From contig JANWWK010000076.1 in the NCBI GenBank assembly GCA_025056175.1, positions 1 to 64,000 on the forward strand: a stretch of DNA of 64,000 nucleotides, read 5' to 3'. Origin of the DNA: Anaerolineales bacterium (GTDB lineage Bacteria; Chloroflexota; Anaerolineae; Anaerolineales; Villigracilaceae). A program made the position numbers and the translations under genes. Positions 49,022 through 58,252 of the stretch are shown piece after piece (the stretch's first letter is position 1; the number at the start of each line of letters is the position of its first letter). Under the pieces are notes generated by a model. It worked only from the letters and a program-made list of their open reading frames with translations, was not told the DNA's origin and searched no databases.

Positions 49022-49459
49022 TTATTCGCTTGCCTTGCCCTCCAGCTCACTCACGAGCCATACCGGGATTTCCTGAACTCGCCGCAGATGCTCATCATTG
49101 GTCAGGAAGGCCTCACAGCCATTTACCAGCGCTACGGCCACTTGCATTGAATCCGCTAGCGTCAAGCGATAGCGAGCGCGCAATTCTGCCGCCATCTCTG
49201 CCGCCACATCATCAATCAGGCAAAACTCAACGCCTGCGCCCTGAACAAGCGCCGCCCGAAACAACTCCGCCAGTCGTTTATTTTTAGATTGCAGCGGAAG
49301 AACCAGACATTCTGCCAGCGTAATCGGGGAGACCACAGCAGTCCACTCATGGCGTTGCAGCCGTTGAAATATCTCCTCAACTGCTGCAGCAAACACCGGA
49401 TGTCCCTCCACAAAATAAATGACCGGCGCTGTATCCAGAAAAATCCGCCGGATGTGCAT
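49022..49459 (-). CDS. PIN-domain toxin, VapC-like
   Basis: 145 residues, a PIN ribonuclease fold. Acidic metal ligands are visible: D9 (FLDTAPVIYFVE), a Glu in LAECLVLP, an Asp in LTLADSMQVAVA and an Asp in FLTNDEHL. VapC toxins cut tRNA or rRNA and arrest translation. The start lies two bases after the antitoxin stop, the classical order (antitoxin first). Confidence 0.85.
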   Translation of the reverse strand: MHIRRIFLDTAPVIYFVEGHPVFAAAVEEIFQRLQRHEWTAVVSPITLAECLVLPLQSKNKRLAELFRAALVQGAGVEFCLIDDVAAEMAAELRARYRLTLADSMQVAVALVNGCEAFLTNDEHLRRVQEIPVWLVSELEGKASE

Positions 49460-49461
49460 GG

Positions 49462-49710
49462 CTAAACCTGTTGACGCATCATCATACTGCGTTGTTGGTC
49501 GCTCTCCTCACGCATCTGACATACCCAATCTTGCGCGTCCATGCCAGCAGCTGGATAAGTCAATTGTCCCTTCAAATGCGCCCACATTAATCGTTTTTTC
49601 TTCAAGACCGGTCTGACACTCTCAATCAAACGTCCGGCCAAAAAGAGACGTTCAGATGGAGAAAGAGAACGCGCCTGGCGCAACAAGGTTTCGAGCGTAT
49701 CTGAAGACAT
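49462..49710 (-). CDS. Antitoxin partner of the PIN toxin
   Basis: 82 residues. The helical N-terminus LLRQARSLSPSERLFLAGRLIESV resembles addiction-module antitoxins of the type found with PIN or RelE toxins. The C-terminal tail (QDWVCQMREESDQQRSMM) is the probable toxin-binding part. The ribosome site GGAGG sits before the ATG. Confidence 0.75.
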   Translation of the reverse strand: MSSDTLETLLRQARSLSPSERLFLAGRLIESVRPVLKKKRLMWAHLKGQLTYPAAGMDAQDWVCQMREESDQQRSMMMRQQV

Positions 49711-49901: not shown

Positions 49902-52900
49902 TTACGCATTCCGCAAGACGATTTCCCGCAAAATTTCGTCCGAAGGTTGGTTGAACATGAGCTGGAAGGGGGCAAAAGCCGTTTCGGCCAGGGAGAGCAG
50001 GTCGGCGCGGCAGGTTGGGGCTGCGGCGCACTGACCGGCGGCCTGATGGATGCTCATCCGCAGTAGGAGCGCTTCGCCGGTGAGAATCGCATCGGGACAG
50101 GCGCGCGCCAGGCTGAGGGCTTCTTCAGCGGCGGCGAGCGCTTCGGGCAAGCGGTTTTCCGCGCGCAGGAGGGCGGCGCGGGTCAATTTCACCAGAATTT
50201 GCTGCGGGGTTTCGCCGAATTCTCCCGCCTGGCGCGAGAGGGTGTCCAGCAGCGCCTGGTCTGTTGCGCCGGTTTGCGCCTGGGCAAAAAGCCATTCCAG
50301 ACGCGCATTTTGGATAAACTGCGGCACACCGCTGGCCTGGGCGGCCCGGAGAGCGCGTTCGCCGATGGCATCCGCCTGCGAAACATCCCCTGCCAGCCGC
50401 CGCAACCGGGCGCGGAACAGGGCGGCCAGCATGACCACGGCGTGTAAGTCGAGTGCAGCGGCTTCCTTTTCCAGCGCGGCGAGCGAGTCGGGCGGAGTGC
50501 GACCGGCAGCCAGGGCGGTGAAGGCCAGGTAAACCCGCATGAGCAGCTGCCCGTAACGGCTTTCGACCCGCCGGGCAATCTCCAATCCGCGTTCAAAATC
50601 GGACTGGGCTTCGCCCAGCCGTCCCATGCGCAGGTACGCCGCGCCGCGCCCGGCGAATTTGCCCCACATGCCAGGCAGGTACGAGTCCCCGGCCACTTCG
50701 ATGGCCTGGCGATAGATTTCGATGGCTTCGGGATACCGTCCGCAGTTGAGCGCAATTTGCCCCTGCATGGTCAGGGCAGCCGATTCAAGCCGCCGCAACC
50801 CGCCGCGCCGCGCCAGTTCCACCGTTTTGGCGAGCGTTTCGTCCGCCCCGGCATAATCCTGCACGAAAACCAGCGCCGTGCCGAGGTGATTCAGGCTCTG
50901 CACAGTCTGCGCCGAGGGTTGGGCCAGGCTTTCTTCCAGCGCGAGGGCCTCGCGCAAATCCTGAATAGATTGCGCGTGCCGCCCCAGCAGGAGCGCGGCC
51001 ATGCCACGAATGTTGAGGGCGCGCGCAATGGCTTGCGAATCGGCCAGGGCGCGCGCCAGCAGGAGCGATTCGTCAGCAGATTGCCAGGCTTCGGCGTAGC
51101 GGTCACTGGTGTAGAGCGCATAGGCCAGACGAGCGAGGGCATGGGCGCGCAAGGGCGGGAAGTCACTGCACAGGCGCAGGGCTTCTTGCAAAAGCGGCAG
51201 GGCATCGGAGGCCTGGCCGCGATAGTGGGCAATGACGCCGCGCTGGAGAGCGGCTTGCGCCCACAATTCACGGCCTTCGAGCGAGGCATCACCCGTCAGC
51301 AGGGTTTCAGCGCGCTCGATGGCCTGCAAGGCTGCATCAAAAGCCGCCAGGTCGGTGCTTTCGCGGGCATGTTCCAGCCAAAAACGCGCGGCGGGCAGGG
51401 GCAACCCGGCGGCCTGGTAATGCGCGGCAATCCGCCCGGCAAAGCCGCTTTCACCAGCGTGAACCTGCTGGAGAACCAGGGCAACCTGCTGGTGCAGGAT
51501 AGCGGCGCGCGCGGCAGGAATGACTTCGAGCAGAATTTCGTGAATCAACTGGTGTGAAAAGACATATTCCGGCGCGCCGGGCAGGATGGCTTCGGTCACA
51601 AAGCGGTTGGCCGATAAACTATCAAGCGCAGCCGCCTGAGCCGCCTCCGACCAGCCGAGCAGGGCTTGCAGTTCGCGGTCGGAAAACGAAAAACCGAGCA
51701 AAGCGGCGGCTTCGAGCATCTCGCGCGCGGCGCGGTTCAACCCTTCCAGGCGCAGGGCAATCGAATCACGCAGGCCAGGCAGAGAAGGCCGCTCGCCCCG
51801 CGCCTGGCGGATGGTTTCGGCGGCTTCGCGCAGCAGGAGCGGCAGGCCCTCTGCGTAGCGGGCCAGTTCTTCGTAGAGCGAGGGCGGCAGGGTCTCTTCG
51901 CGCAGCAAGGCCTTCAGCAGGGAGCGTGCCTCCGCAGGGCGGAAGGCATGCAGCGGGAGTTCGACCAGGGCGCGGCGCTGGCGCAAAGCACGCTTGACCT
52001 GCAAGAGCGGCAGGGGCAGTTCTTCCAGGCGGTGCGTGATGAGAATGAGCAGGGGCAGCGCGGAGCAGGTGTCGGCCAGTTCGCGCAACACATCGAGCGA
52101 GGCGTCATCCGCCCAGTGAACATCTTCCAGAACCAGGATGAGCGGACGCGCCAGCGCCAGGGCGTGAAAAGCCTGCCGCAAAGCGGCGCGCAGTTCTGCG
52201 GCGTTGGGATGAGCCGGCGCCAGCAGACCAGGTTTGAGCAGCGCCAGGTCGGGGACGAGCGGCAGCAGGCGGTTCAACCATTCGGGCAGAATCTCCTCGC
52301 TGCGCGCCAGGAGCGGCGCGGCGGCATTGAGAATTTGTCCCCAGGGCGCATAGGGGCGGGGCGGCGAATCGCTCACCGGCGGGGAACAGCCCCCCCACAA
52401 GACGCGCGGCGCGATGCCCGTCGCATTATCGGCCAGGCGGCGCAGGGATTCCTGCAAGAGCGCAGTTTTGCCCACCCCCGCCGGGCCAGAGACGAAGGCA
52501 ACCCCTCCCCGCCCGTTTCCCAGTCCCCGAAACAGGCCGGAAAGTTGCTCCAGTTCGGCTTCGCGGCTGATGAAGAGCGGCGCAGCAGGTTTGGGGGGCG
52601 CGCTCGGGCGCATCAGGCGGTTGTGCAGGATGTCGCTGTAGAGCGTCATCGTCTCTGGCATGGGCTGGGTGTTAAGTTCGCGCTCCAGCTCACGCGCCAG
52701 AGTTTGATAGGTGGCGAGAGCGGCAGCGCGATTGCCAGTTTGGGCTTCCAGCGTCATCTTCAGGCGGGCGGCTTCTTCATCCCAGGGGTCTTCAAGCAGC
52801 AGACGGCGCACCCAATCCAGGGCGCGGGTCAGGTCGCCCCGCTCCGCATAGCCCTGCGCCAGGCGTTTGAGCAGGGAAAGGAAGCGTTCACGCAAGGCTT

Positions 52901-53333
52901 CGCGCCGGGCAATCAGGAACTCATCCCCCTGGATGCCCACCGCCAACCCGCCGCGATAACCTTCGACGGCGCGTTCCATCTCCTCCAGCCTTTCACCGGC
53001 CTGCTCGAAGGCAGTCACATCCACCCAAACAAGCGGAGAAGCCTGCCACGAAACGGTTTGCGAGGCAATGAGCAAAAGTTTCCGCACCTGGGGCGGCAAC
53101 AGGTTGCGGACCAGGTACAGGTGACGGCGCAGATTGGCAAGCGCTTCGGCTTCGGATTGGTCGGGCCAGAGCGCAAAGGCCAGGTTTCTACGCGAAAGCG
53201 GCCTGCCGGGTTGTAACAAGAGCCGCGCCAGCAGACACAGCAGGCTCTCACGGCGCGGCAGGGCCACCGTCTGCCCGTCCATTTCCAGGCGCGGTTCGCC
53301 AAACAGGAGGAGACGTACCACTCCGCTTTCCAT
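49902..53333 (-). CDS. BTAD/AAA-ATPase/TPR transcriptional activator
   Basis: 1143 residues. An OmpR/SARP-type DNA-binding domain is at about 5-95 and a bacterial transcriptional activator domain (BTAD) at about 100-245. A STAND/AAA-type ATPase has Walker A GPAGVGKT at 283-290 and LVLEDVHWADD near 405. TPR repeats extend over about 650-1130. Such proteins couple ligand or partner binding in the TPRs to transcription. I take the ATG at 53333 because TATAAT sits six bases upstream and the domain starts there; the longer frame to 53435 would contain the promoter. It follows the secreted-protein operon and may regulate it. Confidence 0.9.
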   Translation of the reverse strand: MESGVVRLLLFGEPRLEMDGQTVALPRRESLLCLLARLLLQPGRPLSRRNLAFALWPDQSEAEALANLRRHLYLVRNLLPPQVRKLLLIASQTVSWQASPLVWVDVTAFEQAGERLEEMERAVEGYRGGLAVGIQGDEFLIARREALRERFLSLLKRLAQGYAERGDLTRALDWVRRLLLEDPWDEEAARLKMTLEAQTGNRAAALATYQTLARELERELNTQPMPETMTLYSDILHNRLMRPSAPPKPAAPLFISREAELEQLSGLFRGLGNGRGGVAFVSGPAGVGKTALLQESLRRLADNATGIAPRVLWGGCSPPVSDSPPRPYAPWGQILNAAAPLLARSEEILPEWLNRLLPLVPDLALLKPGLLAPAHPNAAELRAALRQAFHALALARPLILVLEDVHWADDASLDVLRELADTCSALPLLILITHRLEELPLPLLQVKRALRQRRALVELPLHAFRPAEARSLLKALLREETLPPSLYEELARYAEGLPLLLREAAETIRQARGERPSLPGLRDSIALRLEGLNRAAREMLEAAALLGFSFSDRELQALLGWSEAAQAAALDSLSANRFVTEAILPGAPEYVFSHQLIHEILLEVIPAARAAILHQQVALVLQQVHAGESGFAGRIAAHYQAAGLPLPAARFWLEHARESTDLAAFDAALQAIERAETLLTGDASLEGRELWAQAALQRGVIAHYRGQASDALPLLQEALRLCSDFPPLRAHALARLAYALYTSDRYAEAWQSADESLLLARALADSQAIARALNIRGMAALLLGRHAQSIQDLREALALEESLAQPSAQTVQSLNHLGTALVFVQDYAGADETLAKTVELARRGGLRRLESAALTMQGQIALNCGRYPEAIEIYRQAIEVAGDSYLPGMWGKFAGRGAAYLRMGRLGEAQSDFERGLEIARRVESRYGQLLMRVYLAFTALAAGRTPPDSLAALEKEAAALDLHAVVMLAALFRARLRRLAGDVSQADAIGERALRAAQASGVPQFIQNARLEWLFAQAQTGATDQALLDTLSRQAGEFGETPQQILVKLTRAALLRAENRLPEALAAAEEALSLARACPDAILTGEALLLRMSIHQAAGQCAAAPTCRADLLSLAETAFAPFQLMFNQPSDEILREIVLRNA

Positions 53334-53339
53334 ATTCAG

Positions 53340-53345
53340 ATTATA
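53340..53345 (-). promoter_or_regulatory. -10 element for a leaderless BTAD-regulator transcript
   Basis: On the minus strand TATAAT is followed by six bases (CTGAAT) and the ATG at 53333. This fixes the start against the longer open frame. Confidence 0.6.
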
Positions 53346-53479
53346 GTGCCATCCTGCCGGCAAAAAAATACTTCCTTGGCAGGATAAGCCACTCTCCCCC
53401 CAAACACACCCCTTGACCCTGCACACAGAATTCAATAGAATGACGCTCTGATTTATGAATTTTTTGCAGGAGTATGGTC

Positions 53480-54712
53480 ATGATTCGTCTTGCTTACAGC
53501 ACTTTTGGCCTGACCAACCTGGACTTTCTGACCGCCATTGACGAAGTCGAAAAAGCGGGCTATGCGGGCATCGAAATTTCCTTCCACCGCGAACAATTCA
53601 ACCCATTCGACCTGAGCGATGACGACCTGGAAACGGTCCGAAAACGATTGGCAACGGGGCGTGTTCAGGCAGCTTGCGTTGCTACCGCTTCACATTTCTT
53701 CACGCCGCAGCGTCCGCATGAGCCTTCACTGATGTCACCCGACCTGGCCGGACGCAAACGGCGTATCGAGCTGGTCAAGCGCGGCATTCGGGTTGCGCGC
53801 AAACTGGGGGTAAACCTGGTGACCTTTGGGAGCGGCTTCATCCGCGATGAGCATGTCAGCAACCCCTCCGTCAATCCACGCGAGCTGCTCGTGGATAGCA
53901 TCCGGCAATGCCTGGCGGAAATTCATCCCGACGAAGACCTGACGCTGCTCATCGAACCCGAACCCGGCATGTACATCGAAACAATGGAGCAGGGGTTATC
54001 TCTCGTTGAAGAAATCAACTCGCCGCACTTTCGCCTGCATGTAGATATTCTGCACTCCTACTGTTCCGAAAAAAACTATGTGGAAGCCCTGGCACAGGCC
54101 GCGCCATACATCAAGTACCTGCACATTTCAGATGCCCAACAAGGTTACAACCTGAAAATTGTGAAAGACGCACCGAATCTGACGTTTGACCTGGATTTTG
54201 CCTCGTACCTGGTCTATTTCCCACAAACAGCCGATTACCTGCTGCTCGATCGCAACTTTCCGCGTTATTTCTGTGATGAACCGCCCTCCCCGGCGCTCAG
54301 CAGACGGATAGAAGCCCTGCTGAGTCAGGCAGGCATTCAACGCGAAGCGGAGATTGTCCATTACCCCGCGCTGTACGCCGGTTCTTCACCGTATGACGAC
54401 GAATTTTTCACGTACTGGATTTCGGTGCCAGGCCTGAGTTACGATGTGCTGGAACGCACCAGGCCAATTCTCGGCTATCTGCGCGGCGTGCGGGGGCCGC
54501 AACTGGTGAACAAGCGCATTGCCAACACCCTGACGGGTATCGTCCACTTTCACGAAATTCCGGGCGAAGGCACGCTCGATTTTGCCGCCAGTTTCAAAGC
54601 ACTGACTGAGAACGGATTCGATGGCTATGGCGCGGTTGAGCTGTATCACCATGTCGAAGCGTGGCAAAATGCGCTCACCGCCAGTTATCGGCATCTCTCG
54701 CAATTCGTTTAG
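53480..54712 (+). CDS. Sugar-phosphate isomerase/epimerase-type TIM barrel with extended C-terminus
   Basis: 410 residues. The xylose-isomerase-like TIM barrel starts IRLAYSTFGLTNLDFLTAIDEVEKAGYAGIEI. Metal/substrate sites are likely near E184 in LIEPEPGMYIE, in LHVDILHSYCSE, and in YIKYLHISDAQQGYNL. The protein is about 120 residues longer than typical members. The extra part holds a YLLLDRNFPRYFCDEPPSPALSRRIEALL segment and more before AVELYHHVEAW. The start at 53480 has AGGAG at 7-base spacing; an ATG at 53474 is too close to it. It lies 177 bases before luxS, same strand, so cotranscription is possible but unproven. Confidence 0.8.
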   Translation: MIRLAYSTFGLTNLDFLTAIDEVEKAGYAGIEISFHREQFNPFDLSDDDLETVRKRLATGRVQAACVATASHFFTPQRPHEPSLMSPDLAGRKRRIELVKRGIRVARKLGVNLVTFGSGFIRDEHVSNPSVNPRELLVDSIRQCLAEIHPDEDLTLLIEPEPGMYIETMEQGLSLVEEINSPHFRLHVDILHSYCSEKNYVEALAQAAPYIKYLHISDAQQGYNLKIVKDAPNLTFDLDFASYLVYFPQTADYLLLDRNFPRYFCDEPPSPALSRRIEALLSQAGIQREAEIVHYPALYAGSSPYDDEFFTYWISVPGLSYDVLERTRPILGYLRGVRGPQLVNKRIANTLTGIVHFHEIPGEGTLDFAASFKALTENGFDGYGAVELYHHVEAWQNALTASYRHLSQFV

Positions 54713-54751
54713 CGCCCCAACCGAAATCAATCTAAAATGGGTATTTACAAA

Positions 54752-54803
54752 GCAAAAACGCCAAAAATCTTTGCACTCTTTGCACTTTTGCACCAAGAAA
54801 GAG
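54752..54803. repeat. Dispersed AAAATCTTTGC element, copy B
   Basis: Contains CGCCAAAAATCTTTGCACTC and TTTGCACTTTTGCACC, a variant of the element at 48978-49011. It fills much of the gap between the TIM-barrel gene and luxS. The rest of that gap shows no clear promoter. Confidence 0.4.
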
Positions 54804-54889
54804 TTTGACCATAAAACACCGCAACACGCCGCCATTTTGACCGTCTGAACACGGTGACACTTCAACGGCGTTGCGCCACAGGAGTCATC

Positions 54890-55372
54890 ATGATAGATTT
54901 CCAAACACTTGGCTGGGATGTTCGCACCGTCGGCGAACTCGACCATCGCTTGCTCAAAGCCCCGCGTGTCAAACTGCGCTCAGCCAACCCCGGACCCAAC
55001 GGTGATATTGTCTATTGCGTCGATTTGCGCGTTAACAAACCCAACGCAGGGCAATACCTGACTTCGACCGAGTTACACTCCGTCGAGCATTTTCTGCTCG
55101 AAGGGTTACAGCGTTACCTGCCGAAAAATTTTCTCTCCATCGGCATTATGGGCTGCCAGACCGGCTTCTATATTGTGCTGCTGAATGAAGGCCGCGCCGA
55201 AGTCATTTGCAATGTACTGGAAAACATCCTGCAGGATATGCAAACGGCGACCGAAGTGCCATACGCAAATATCGAACAGTGCGGCAACTACCAGAATCAC
55301 AGCCTGGAACAGGCTCAGGCCGTTGCCCGGCGCATCCTGGCTGCACGCACAGAGTGGCTCGACATCGTATGA
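54890..55372 (+). CDS. luxS: S-ribosylhomocysteine lyase (LuxS)
   Basis: 160 residues. LuxS splits S-ribosylhomocysteine into homocysteine and 4,5-dihydroxy-2,3-pentanedione (the AI-2 precursor). All family catalytic residues are present: R47 (DLRVNKPN), H63-x-x-E66-H67 (ELHSVEHF), C89 (IMGCQTGFY) and C131 (NIEQCGNYQNH). The GELDH start motif is intact. Its stop codon overlaps the ATG of the cyclase (ATGA), so the two are translationally coupled, which is unusual for luxS. No pfs nucleosidase gene is in the window. Start: GGAG at 5-6 base spacing. Confidence 0.93.
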   Translation: MIDFQTLGWDVRTVGELDHRLLKAPRVKLRSANPGPNGDIVYCVDLRVNKPNAGQYLTSTELHSVEHFLLEGLQRYLPKNFLSIGIMGCQTGFYIVLLNEGRAEVICNVLENILQDMQTATEVPYANIEQCGNYQNHSLEQAQAVARRILAARTEWLDIV

Positions 55373-56544
55373 CCCTGCCTGTTGCACGCTGGCGCGTCTC
55401 GTATCAGCGCCCCATCGAGTATGAAATTGTCAACGCGCCGGGTCTGTTTGAACCGGAGAATCCTGCCCTGCTTTCCTGCGGTAGAGTCGAGAATGGACGC
55501 CGCTTCGTGGTGGTAGATAGCACCGTCTTTCGGCACTTCGGCGAGGCTATTCAAGCTTATTTTGATTACCACCGCATCCGTGCCAGAATCGTCCCCTTTG
55601 CCAGCGGTGAAGAACACAAAACGGTCGATTCGTATCTGGGCATTCTCTACGAACTGGATTCGTTTCCCATTCACCGCCGCGATGAACCCATCATCGCCAT
55701 CGGCGGCGGTGTGCTGACCGATGTGGTCGGGTTCGTTGCCAGCAGTTATCGGCGCAGTGTGCCGCACATCAAAGTCCCGACGACCCTGATGGGCTACGTA
55801 GATGCCTCGGTCGGCATCAAAACTGGCATCAACTTCAACAGTCACAAAAACCGACTGGGGTCATTTGAGCCACCCCGCCGTGTATTGCTCGACCGCGCCT
55901 TCCTGCGCACGCTGCCGCGCCGTCACATTCTCAACGGGGTGTGCGAAATTATCAAACTGGCAATTATCAAAGATGCCGCGCTCTTCAATCTGCTGGAAAT
56001 ACACGGCCCAGCCAGTGTCGAAGCACATTTTCAAGATGACGCGGGCGGAGACATCCTCGACCGCGCCATCAGCGGTATGCTGGAAGAACTCGAACCCAAC
56101 CTTTACGAGGACAACCTGGAACGCAAGGTAGATTTTGGTCATACCTTCAGTTATGGCCTGGAAACGCGCCACGAAGCACACCTGCTGCACGGCGAAGCCG
56201 TCCTCTTGGACATTCTCGCCTCGTGTATGCTTGCGTTGGGACGCGGCTTACTCTCCGAAAGTGAGACCGAGCGCATCATCAGCCTGGTTCACCAGCTGGG
56301 AATTGCGCTCGACCCCACCCTGCTGGACCCAGCCCTGATGTGGGAGAACTTGCTGGAACGAATCGAACACCGTAATGGCTATCAGCGCGTCCCGATGCCA
56401 GACGGAATCGGCCACTGCATCTTCCTTAACGACATCACGCAACGGGAAATCGAACAGGCTGTTGAGCGCCTGACGCGCTATGCGATATTCAACAACGCCC
56501 TGTCCGCGCACGCCTGCCTTGAACCACTGACCTCAAACACCTAA
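55369..56544 (+). CDS. Sugar-phosphate cyclase, 2-epi-5-epi-valiolone synthase-like
   Basis: 391 residues of the dehydroquinate-synthase superfamily. NAD-binding GGGVLTD is at 112-118. Probable metal ligands are E193, H258 and H274 (HGEAV). The block VDASVGIKTGINF, with HKNRLGSFEPP next, and the late GIGHCIFLNDI look like sedoheptulose-7-phosphate cyclases (EEVS/EVS/DDGS) more than AroB or EboD. The expected product is a C7 cyclitol; the exact branch cannot be called by eye. The ATG overlaps the luxS stop, and UbiG-like follows 21 bases on. Confidence 0.82.
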   Translation: MTLPVARWRVSYQRPIEYEIVNAPGLFEPENPALLSCGRVENGRRFVVVDSTVFRHFGEAIQAYFDYHRIRARIVPFASGEEHKTVDSYLGILYELDSFPIHRRDEPIIAIGGGVLTDVVGFVASSYRRSVPHIKVPTTLMGYVDASVGIKTGINFNSHKNRLGSFEPPRRVLLDRAFLRTLPRRHILNGVCEIIKLAIIKDAALFNLLEIHGPASVEAHFQDDAGGDILDRAISGMLEELEPNLYEDNLERKVDFGHTFSYGLETRHEAHLLHGEAVLLDILASCMLALGRGLLSESETERIISLVHQLGIALDPTLLDPALMWENLLERIEHRNGYQRVPMPDGIGHCIFLNDITQREIEQAVERLTRYAIFNNALSAHACLEPLTSNT

Positions 56545-56565
56545 TAAACCACGAAAGCGTCTGCT

Positions 56566-57294
56566 ATGACCCAATTTTCCAACGCCGACCATCAAGAAAT
56601 CACCAAGTTTGATAACGTCTCTGACATCTGGTGGGACCCGAAGGGCGAAATGGGCACGCTGCACACCATCAACCCGTTGCGCACAAAATTCATCCTCGAC
56701 CATATCCAGACCCCACAGCCACGCATTCTCGATGTAGGCTGCGGCGGAGGGATTCTGTCCGAGGCACTGGCACAGGCCGGAGCGCGCGTGACCGGGATTG
56801 ACCTTTCTCTGCCCTCGCTGGAAGTTGCCCGTCAACACGCCCGCGCCGGAGGCCTTGAAATTGAATACCGCCCTATCTCTGCGGAAGCAATCGCTGCTGA
56901 ACAGCCCGCCTCGTTCGATGCGGTGACCTGCCTGGAAATGCTGGAACACGTCCCCGAACCGCAGAACGTCGTCGCCGCCTGCGCGCGCGCCGTCAAACCC
57001 GGCGGCACGGTCGTTTTTTCTACCATCAACCGCACCCTCAAAGCATTGTTCGCCGTCATCCTGGTGGGGGAATATGTGCTGCGCCTTCTGCCGCGCGGCA
57101 CACACGATTACCGCAAACTGATTCGCCCCGCCGAACTCAAAGCCTGGGCGCAGCAGGCCGGGTTAGACTTCGTGCAAAGCGCCAGCCTGATATACAATCC
57201 GCTCACGGGCAAGTTCAAAATGGCGTACAATCAGGAAGATATGAACTACCTGGTGTGCTTCCGCAAACCCAGCGCACGTCCCCCTGTCTCCTGA
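56566..57294 (+). CDS. UbiG-like SAM-dependent O-methyltransferase
   Basis: 242 residues. The N-terminus FDNVSDIWWDPKGEMGTLHTINPLR is a clear UbiG hallmark. The SAM motif DVGCGGG is at 56-62, and the late block NQEDMNYLVCFR is also UbiG-like. UbiG methylates ring hydroxyls of polyprenyl-phenols in ubiquinone synthesis. Here the neighbours are a cyclase and a UbiA-like enzyme rather than a ubiquinone operon. I propose a hydroxylated cyclitol or lipid ring as acceptor; this is inference. Confidence 0.83.
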   Translation: MTQFSNADHQEITKFDNVSDIWWDPKGEMGTLHTINPLRTKFILDHIQTPQPRILDVGCGGGILSEALAQAGARVTGIDLSLPSLEVARQHARAGGLEIEYRPISAEAIAAEQPASFDAVTCLEMLEHVPEPQNVVAACARAVKPGGTVVFSTINRTLKALFAVILVGEYVLRLLPRGTHDYRKLIRPAELKAWAQQAGLDFVQSASLIYNPLTGKFKMAYNQEDMNYLVCFRKPSARPPVS

Positions 57295-57337
57295 CCGCTG
57301 CCCCCAATCCACCAATCACGGACCACTGATTCTGCCT

Positions 57338-58252
57338 ATGCTCTCCCGCTTTTTCGCCCTCTCCCGCACCACACACGGTGTTCTCGATATTGCCATGCCC
57401 GGCTTTGCCGCCTTGCTCTGGCTGGGAAAATTTCCTGATTGGCCGGTTCTGCTTCTTTCCTTGCTAACCGCCTTCGCCGGTTATACGGCCATTTACGCGC
57501 TCAACGACCTGGTTGCCATCAAAACCGACCGCGAAAAATTTGCCGGAGGAACCATTAATGAAGGTTACTCGGTAGAGGCCTCGGCCATGCGCTATCCGCT
57601 GGCGCAAAACATCCTCTCTGCCCGGCAAGGCTGGCTATGGTTCGGGGTCTGGTACGCCATTGCGCTGGTCGGAGCCTGGCTGCTGAACCCGGTCATCGTT
57701 TGGATTGTTCTGGCGGCTGCCGTGCTGGAAGTCATCTACTGCCGTCTGCTCAAAGTAACCTACTGGCGTACACTGGTCAGCGGCCTGGTGAAATCGGCCG
57801 GGCCGGTTGCAGCGGTGTTCGTGGTCGAACCCCGTCCTGCCCTGCCGTTACTCCTGCTCATGCTGGTCTGGCTCATACTGTGGGAAATTGGCGGTCAAAA
57901 CATCCCCGCCGATTGGAATGACGTCGAAGAAGACCGCCGCGTGGGCGCAAAAACCATCCCGCTCACCTTTGGGCCAGAACGCGCCGGGTTGATTGTGGTC
58001 ATCACCCTGGTTCTGACTACGCTGGTCAGTCTGTTCCTGCCGCTCATCGCGCCCATTCCACTGGGCCTGCCGTACCTGCTGGGAACAGCCTGCATCGGGC
58101 TATTTTTGCTGGTGTTGCCGGGCATTCAACTCTATCAAAAACGGGAGAGCCGTCAGGCCGCGCGCCTGTTCGACCGCGCCAGTTACTACCCGTTAGCGCA
58201 ATTGACGCTCATCACGATATTTGTCTTGCTACACGCCTGGAAGGTGGGATAA
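57338..58252 (+). CDS. UbiA-like polyprenyltransferase
   Basis: 304 residues with about eight membrane helices. The first aspartate-rich motif is N56-D57-x-x-A60-x-x-x-D64 (NDLVAIKTD), in which the third acid of the family motif is Ala. The second is IPADWNDVEEDRRVGAKT. These chelate Mg2+ and polyprenyl diphosphate. It is related to the EboC/UbiA group and may attach an isoprenoid chain to a product of the preceding genes. It begins 43 bases after the methylase. Confidence 0.85.
   Translation: MLSRFFALSRTTHGVLDIAMPGFAALLWLGKFPDWPVLLLSLLTAFAGYTAIYALNDLVAIKTDREKFAGGTINEGYSVEASAMRYPLAQNILSARQGWLWFGVWYAIALVGAWLLNPVIVWIVLAAAVLEVIYCRLLKVTYWRTLVSGLVKSAGPVAAVFVVEPRPALPLLLLMLVWLILWEIGGQNIPADWNDVEEDRRVGAKTIPLTFGPERAGLIVVITLVLTTLVSLFLPLIAPIPLGLPYLLGTACIGLFLLVLPGIQLYQKRESRQAARLFDRASYYPLAQLTLITIFVLLHAWKVG

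Follow-up and report, generated by a model that had tools for sequence, protein, structure and literature searches.

A LuxS-family protein in a widespread five-gene operon that may make a prenylated, O-methylated ring lipid

We analysed a stretch of 64,000 nucleotides from an Anaerolineales bacterium (Villigracilaceae), namely positions 1-64,000 of the forward strand of contig JANWWK010000076.1 (assembly GCA_025056175.1), called the window below. It contains an operon of five genes on the plus strand at 53474-58252, in which a LuxS-family protein is linked to a TIM-barrel enzyme, a sugar phosphate cyclase, a UbiG-type methylase and a UbiA-type prenyltransferase. With moderate confidence we propose that this horizontally spread operon makes a small prenylated, O-methylated ring lipid, and that the TIM-barrel protein and LuxS act on the product of the cyclase. 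What the proposal starts from is established: the gene content, its conservation and co-inheritance, the catalytic residues kept by LuxS, the loss of its residue Asp78 and its fusion to the TIM-barrel protein. The five genes are:

53474-54712, plus strand: gene 1, TIM-barrel sugar isomerase/epimerase-like enzyme of 412 amino acids (PF01261, AP_endonuc_2, 123 bits)
54890-55372, plus strand: LuxS-family protein (PF02664, 113 bits)
55369-56544, plus strand: sedoheptulose-7-phosphate-type sugar phosphate cyclase (DHQ_synthase, PF01761, 122 bits)
56566-57294, plus strand: UbiG-family O-methyltransferase (TIGR01983, 251 bits, cut-off 103)
57338-58252, plus strand: UbiA-superfamily membrane prenyltransferase (PF01040, 112 bits)

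The genes are tightly packed. The TIM gene lies 177 bases upstream of luxS, luxS and the cyclase overlap by four bases (ATGA, with the cyclase ATG at 55369), 21 bases separate the cyclase stop from the UbiG-like start, and a gap of 43 bases precedes the UbiA-like gene. The original prediction, made from the letters of this DNA, had the coordinates, strands, overlap and the latter two gaps exactly right, and model searches uphold its calls of LuxS, cyclase, UbiG-like and UbiA-like families. The four genes that it described do belong together; the fifth conserved gene, encoding the TIM barrel, it missed. The flanks of the compared loci hold no conserved sixth gene. Promoter and terminator scans gave matches at chance level only, and an Rfam search gave no match.

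The linkage of these genes extends well beyond a single genome. Within the window's family, 100 genomes were searched for the cyclase. Close orthologues (60-82% identity) are present in 24 of them besides the window's own genome, and AroB-type matches stand apart at about 27-41%. The order TIM-LuxS-cyclase-UbiG-UbiA is kept in all 24 loci. The flanks outside the operon are unconserved and match only in the sister species. Among 46 family genomes, picked to include operon-positive (24) and operon-negative (22) members, LuxS is a single-copy gene in every operon-bearing genome and is found in none of the 22 relatives that lack the operon. The TIM protein occurs in 12 of 400 Chloroflexota genomes and LuxS in 8 of 199 genomes of the window's class, every one of them within the window's family.

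For a wider survey about 85,000 species genomes were scanned with a cyclase alignment, and the best 80 of 255 relatives were examined. These loci were gathered by the cyclase alone; LuxS was not used for selection. They come from Chloroflexota (39), Pseudomonadota (35), Mycobacterium (3), Bacillota (2) and Eremiobacterota (1). The Pseudomonadota hosts include Rhodanobacter, Lysobacter, Luteimonas, Castellaniella and the complete HdN1 genome. Many operon hosts are denitrifiers, and nirS is a neighbour in one MAG; the operon might have a connection with denitrification. LuxS adjoins the cyclase in all of the best 80 of 255 loci, being close by rather than adjacent in L163. All five genes stand in the same order in 76 of the 80, from five phyla, with some loci clipped by contig ends. 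The exceptions are L131, where UbiG was not found at the locus; L134, whose contig begins inside LuxS; L157 (Desulforadius), with TIM-LuxS and the cyclase and no UbiG or UbiA gene nearby; and L163, from a metagenome-assembled genome (MAG) of Tissierellales, where the partners of TIM, LuxS and cyclase are instead two B12-binding radical SAM proteins and a methylase of the FkbM type. After removal of duplicates there are 85 distinct loci, the window included, and LuxS is present in every one. The linkage of cyclase and LuxS, which the original prediction had asked to be checked in other genomes together with UbiG and UbiA, is far beyond chance. More distant relatives of the cyclase may be without LuxS, since only the best 80 of 255 were examined.

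Both the cyclase tree and the patchy distribution over taxa point to a spread of the operon by horizontal transfer. Across 76 distinct loci, the five proteins show correlated pairwise distances (r 0.81-0.87). Co-inherited genes correlate anyway, and hence this is no proof of joint function; it argues against frequent swapping of single genes.

The operon LuxS shares its fold with the canonical S-ribosylhomocysteine (SRH) lyase and differs from it in several other respects. Its predicted structure (predicted local distance difference test, pLDDT, of 97) has Helicobacter pylori LuxS as top match, with a template-modelling score (TM) of 0.86-0.91. The HxxEH and Cys metal ligands are present, and His54, Glu57, His58, Cys84, Cys126, His11 and Arg39 are all retained. 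In contrast, a tree separates the operon proteins as a clade (support 100/97) from 13 canonical LuxS proteins, and the window's LuxS stays below the NCBIfam LuxS equivalog models (best 116 bits, cut-off 158). Every one of the 84 distinct operon LuxS proteins that could be read there has Ser, Gly or Cys in place of Asp78. Glu57, Arg65 and Asp78 have been named as substrate-binding residues of LuxS (PMC2656534). The Ser6-Phe7 motif is replaced too, the Phe being conserved in every LuxS studied in the same work (PMC2656534), and an N-terminal extension carries an invariant Gly-Trp. Of the 56 hosts tested, 55 have no LuxS besides the operon copy; the Tissierellales genome carries a canonical LuxS as well. 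Finally, TIM and LuxS form one open reading frame in Desulforadius tongensis (L157, 592 amino acids) and in a Legionellales MAG (L164, 589 amino acids), two distant lineages.

Two roles for LuxS were offered in the original prediction, and neither is supported. In the first, LuxS would be a normal SRH lyase that recycles S-adenosylhomocysteine (SAH) from the UbiG methylase. An intact fold with its catalytic residues would suit this role, as would a methyltransferase that is nearly always nearby and the MTAN/Pfs nucleosidase in some hosts (above cut-off in 2 of the 24 operon-bearing family genomes and 7 of 32 other hosts). Yet SahH is encoded in all 46 family genomes, LuxS is absent from the relatives without the operon, and the complete HdN1 genome, like ten more of the 32 non-family hosts, gave no MTAN-like match even at E 0.001. 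Asp78 is lost, the fusion partner is a sugar isomerase-like enzyme and not a methylase, and Desulforadius has TIM-LuxS and the cyclase with neither UbiG nor UbiA nearby. We consider SAH recycling quite unlikely. In the second role, LuxS would make 4,5-dihydroxy-2,3-pentanedione from SRH as a carbon unit to be joined to the cyclitol. The strict linkage and the fusions do put LuxS inside the pathway. However, this role needs a source of SRH, apparently missing in several hosts such as HdN1; the substrate-binding Asp78 is lost, and the operon has no enzyme to join two carbon units. This second role is very improbable.

The cyclase is predicted to be a member of the sedoheptulose 7-phosphate (S7P) cyclases, as had been proposed. 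Among solved structures its best relative is ValA, a 2-epi-5-epi-valiolone synthase (EEVS; 4p53, 341 bits), followed by a demethyl-4-deoxygadusol synthase (DDGS; 5tpr, 263 bits), with AroB proteins at about 150 bits or less. A maximum-likelihood tree unites the operon cyclases in one clade (100/100), which lies within the EEVS/DDGS group. The S7P cyclases as a group have support of 100/99, and AroB and EboD are separate; the three EEVS references are not resolved as a single clade in this tree. In the alignment the operon cyclase, like ValA, has Asp and His at two positions that read Ala and Thr in DDGS. These residues, D255 and H334, are invariant in all 85 distinct loci. We take them to correspond to ValA 281 and 360, which distinguish EEVS from DDGS. 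The enzyme scores 217 bits with the AroB model TIGR01357, below the cut-off of 305, and a separate AroB-type gene is present in the same genome (contig C59); together with the tree position this led us to reject AroB. As judged from model scores, tree and residues, it is an S7P-type cyclase with EEVS-like residues, neither AroB nor EboD, and we infer that S7P is its substrate. It shares with ValA the S7P cyclase branch and the Asp/His pair; it differs in forming a clade of its own and in its linkage to LuxS and TIM genes, not to aminocyclitol or acarbose-type genes.

For the TIM-barrel protein, an AlphaFold model (pLDDT 95.7) finds its nearest fold in ketose 3-epimerases (Z about 30) and also matches IolI (Z 27), an isomerase of the inositol pathway, and AsbF, a ring dehydratase. 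Among the members of the xylose-isomerase-like TIM family are isomerases and dehydratases of cyclic ketones, namely IolI, IolE and AsbF. E161, D191, H217 and E389 are invariant across the 85 distinct loci, and we take them to be the Glu-Asp-His-Glu metal site of this family. In two loci, L088:2498-3708 and L133:6126-7483, the TIM gene was matched as two pieces, which suggests a frameshift or an insertion.

Alternatively, TIM and LuxS might act before the cyclase, as a pair of isomerases whose product, an unusual heptulose phosphate, the cyclase would then close to a ring. The gene order TIM-LuxS-cyclase would fit such a sequence of steps, as would the ketose 3-epimerases as best structural matches of TIM and the aldose-ketose isomerisation for which LuxS is known. 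However, the cyclase has the residues of enzymes that use plain S7P, a common metabolite, and the TIM fold family also has as members the ring dehydratase AsbF and IolI, an enzyme with a cyclitol ketone as substrate. We regard action before the cyclase as unlikely.

The last two genes supply the decorating enzymes. UbiA prenylates and UbiG O-methylates a phenol ring. We assign the operon methylase to the UbiG family; it matches Escherichia coli UbiG (4kdc) with 233 bits from end to end (residues 6-230). Neither the window's genome nor the Mycobacterium hosts have another UbiG above the cut-off, whereas 7 of the 8 Pseudomonadota tested carry it as a second copy; their non-operon UbiG and the window's UbiG-type protein are 43-51% identical. 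In the UbiA protein both Asp-rich motifs are near-invariant (N56, D57, D64 and D192, D195, D199). Its scores reach the cut-off of none of the named UbiA subfamilies, and the window's genome has five further UbiA-superfamily genes. The pair resembles the UbiA and UbiG steps of ubiquinone synthesis in that prenyltransferase and O-methyltransferase belong to the same superfamilies as there, but it also occurs where the host has no second UbiG (Chloroflexota, Mycobacterium).

How might these enzymes work together? EEVS-type cyclases yield a C7 keto-cyclitol, and the chemistry of LuxS consists of a sugar carbonyl isomerisation (aldose-ketose) followed by a beta-elimination. We propose that the cyclase would convert S7P to a C7 keto-cyclitol of the 2-epi-5-epi-valiolone type. 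TIM and LuxS would then process it in one or two isomerisation or dehydration steps, shifting the carbonyl via an enediolate and eliminating the beta substituent. Two dehydrations of 2-epi-5-epi-valiolone could give a phenol resembling trihydroxybenzyl alcohol, a plausible substrate for UbiA and UbiG, with no use of chorismate. UbiA would add an isoprenoid tail and UbiG would methylate one ring hydroxyl, as in ubiquinone synthesis; the order of these two steps we infer. That LuxS acts on a pathway intermediate we consider likely, and that the ring becomes aromatic we give a little under an even chance. The fullest version is tentative: this clade would be the first of the LuxS family with another function, serving as an isomerase/eliminase on a route that leads from S7P, independently of chorismate, to a methoxylated, prenylated phenol or quinone and that has spread horizontally over at least five phyla. 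The original prediction of a pathway to an O-methylated, possibly prenylated cyclitol is supported, so far as sequence can tell, by the cyclase tree, the separate AroB-type gene and the wide linkage. Neither of the outcomes that it had named as contrary came about: the linkage is not confined to this genome, and the cyclase does not fall with AroB.

Several observations weigh against this proposal. Two of the 14 reference canonical LuxS proteins have Tyr at the Asp78 position, and hence this position alone is not decisive. The position of Arg65 is mostly Gln in an ungapped reading, and a basic residue one place on may stand in for it; we dropped the statement that Arg65 is lost, because a shift of the alignment by one residue can keep the basic residue. 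The Mycobacterium hosts have MTAN above cut-off. Many Anaerolineae genomes have an MTAN-like nucleosidase below it, and since these are true members of the nucleosidase superfamily, a source of SRH is possible in Anaerolineae and a plain claim of no Pfs there was given up. Lastly, no oxidase able to form a quinone is encoded within the operon. One of the nucleosidase-superfamily proteins below the MTAN cut-off is L235 (G000:C86:17000-18500); such proteins occur in Anaerolineae with or without the operon.

Other cyclitol systems share parts of this logic. The ebo operon (EboA-F) has the same three enzyme classes side by side, a UbiA-type enzyme, a sugar phosphate cyclase and a TIM barrel (PMC5133447), and the operon could be taken for a rearranged ebo cluster. 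But in each class the operon enzyme belongs to another family by model and tree, and LuxS and UbiG are outside the described ebo sets. The models of EboE (NF035939) and EboC (NF035940) matched none of the window's proteins; as a control, they matched Azospirillum ebo proteins, EboE above its cut-off and EboC only below its own. The operon cyclase reaches 198 bits with PRK06203, below the cut-off of 333, and is excluded from the EboD clade (100/99). EboE is absent from 35 of 36 operon genomes, and in the remaining one it is additional to the operon. EboA, EboB and EboF are not among the conserved neighbours of the operon, the genome-wide search having covered EboE alone. NCBIfam models and the cyclase tree thus ruled out our initial reading of ebo membership, to which we now give next to no credence, and the Ebo parallel drawn in the original prediction holds as an analogy only. 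The genome with both is Mycobacterium angelicum (G654), where the EboE gene lies elsewhere. On a Streptomyces plasmid (L081:3765-10991), EboA, TatD, EboE and a phosphodiesterase lie beside an inositol-3-phosphate synthase and an SCO3242 prenyltransferase. These ebo genes have no adjacent sugar phosphate cyclase gene, and another cyclitol-forming enzyme may replace EboD there.

A second parallel is the BE-40644 pathway, which combines EEVS with a UbiA-type farnesyltransferase (PMC5133447). There too a cyclase product is later prenylated by a UbiA-superfamily enzyme, but no LuxS or UbiG-type methylase is mentioned in that source, and the comparison is by description, not by sequence. In gadusol and mycosporine pathways an S7P cyclase (EEVS or DDGS) is likewise followed by an O-methyltransferase, for example in Nostoc (L084). 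The operon differs in that its cyclase is not in the DDGS clade, its methylase is of the UbiG type and a membrane prenyltransferase follows.

Further genes near the operon vary between loci. At L163:6515-13504 the genes for TIM, LuxS and cyclase are flanked by the FkbM methyltransferase and the two B12-binding radical SAM proteins, and related radical SAM genes lie near the operon in L095, L096 and L101. A gene for an FNR-type regulator is near the operon in L111 (11035-11817), with related genes in L104, L109 and L148. In the window, a large BTAD/AAA/TPR regulator (49902-53435, minus strand) is divergent from the operon and is kept alongside it only in the sister species. Two small adjoining genes at 49022-49710 (minus strand) look by eye like a PIN-domain toxin and an antitoxin.

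In the mostly open-access literature that we covered, LuxS together with valiolone, a cyclase or a prenyltransferase is undescribed, beyond a table with these five genes, unanalysed, close to a nirS in a Chloroflexi MAG (PMC8756737). The gene luxS is among the best-known bacterial genes, and its presence is routinely taken as evidence of autoinducer-2 (AI-2) signalling. For the operon hosts among Mycobacterium, Rhodanobacter and Anaerolineae this reading is probably wrong, because the sole LuxS (in 55 of 56 hosts) is tied to the operon and has lost a substrate-binding residue. Here a LuxS relative appears to be used as an ordinary pathway enzyme, not for the production of a signal. The operon is also a lead to a prenylated ring lipid, which may be a quinone of chorismate-independent origin.

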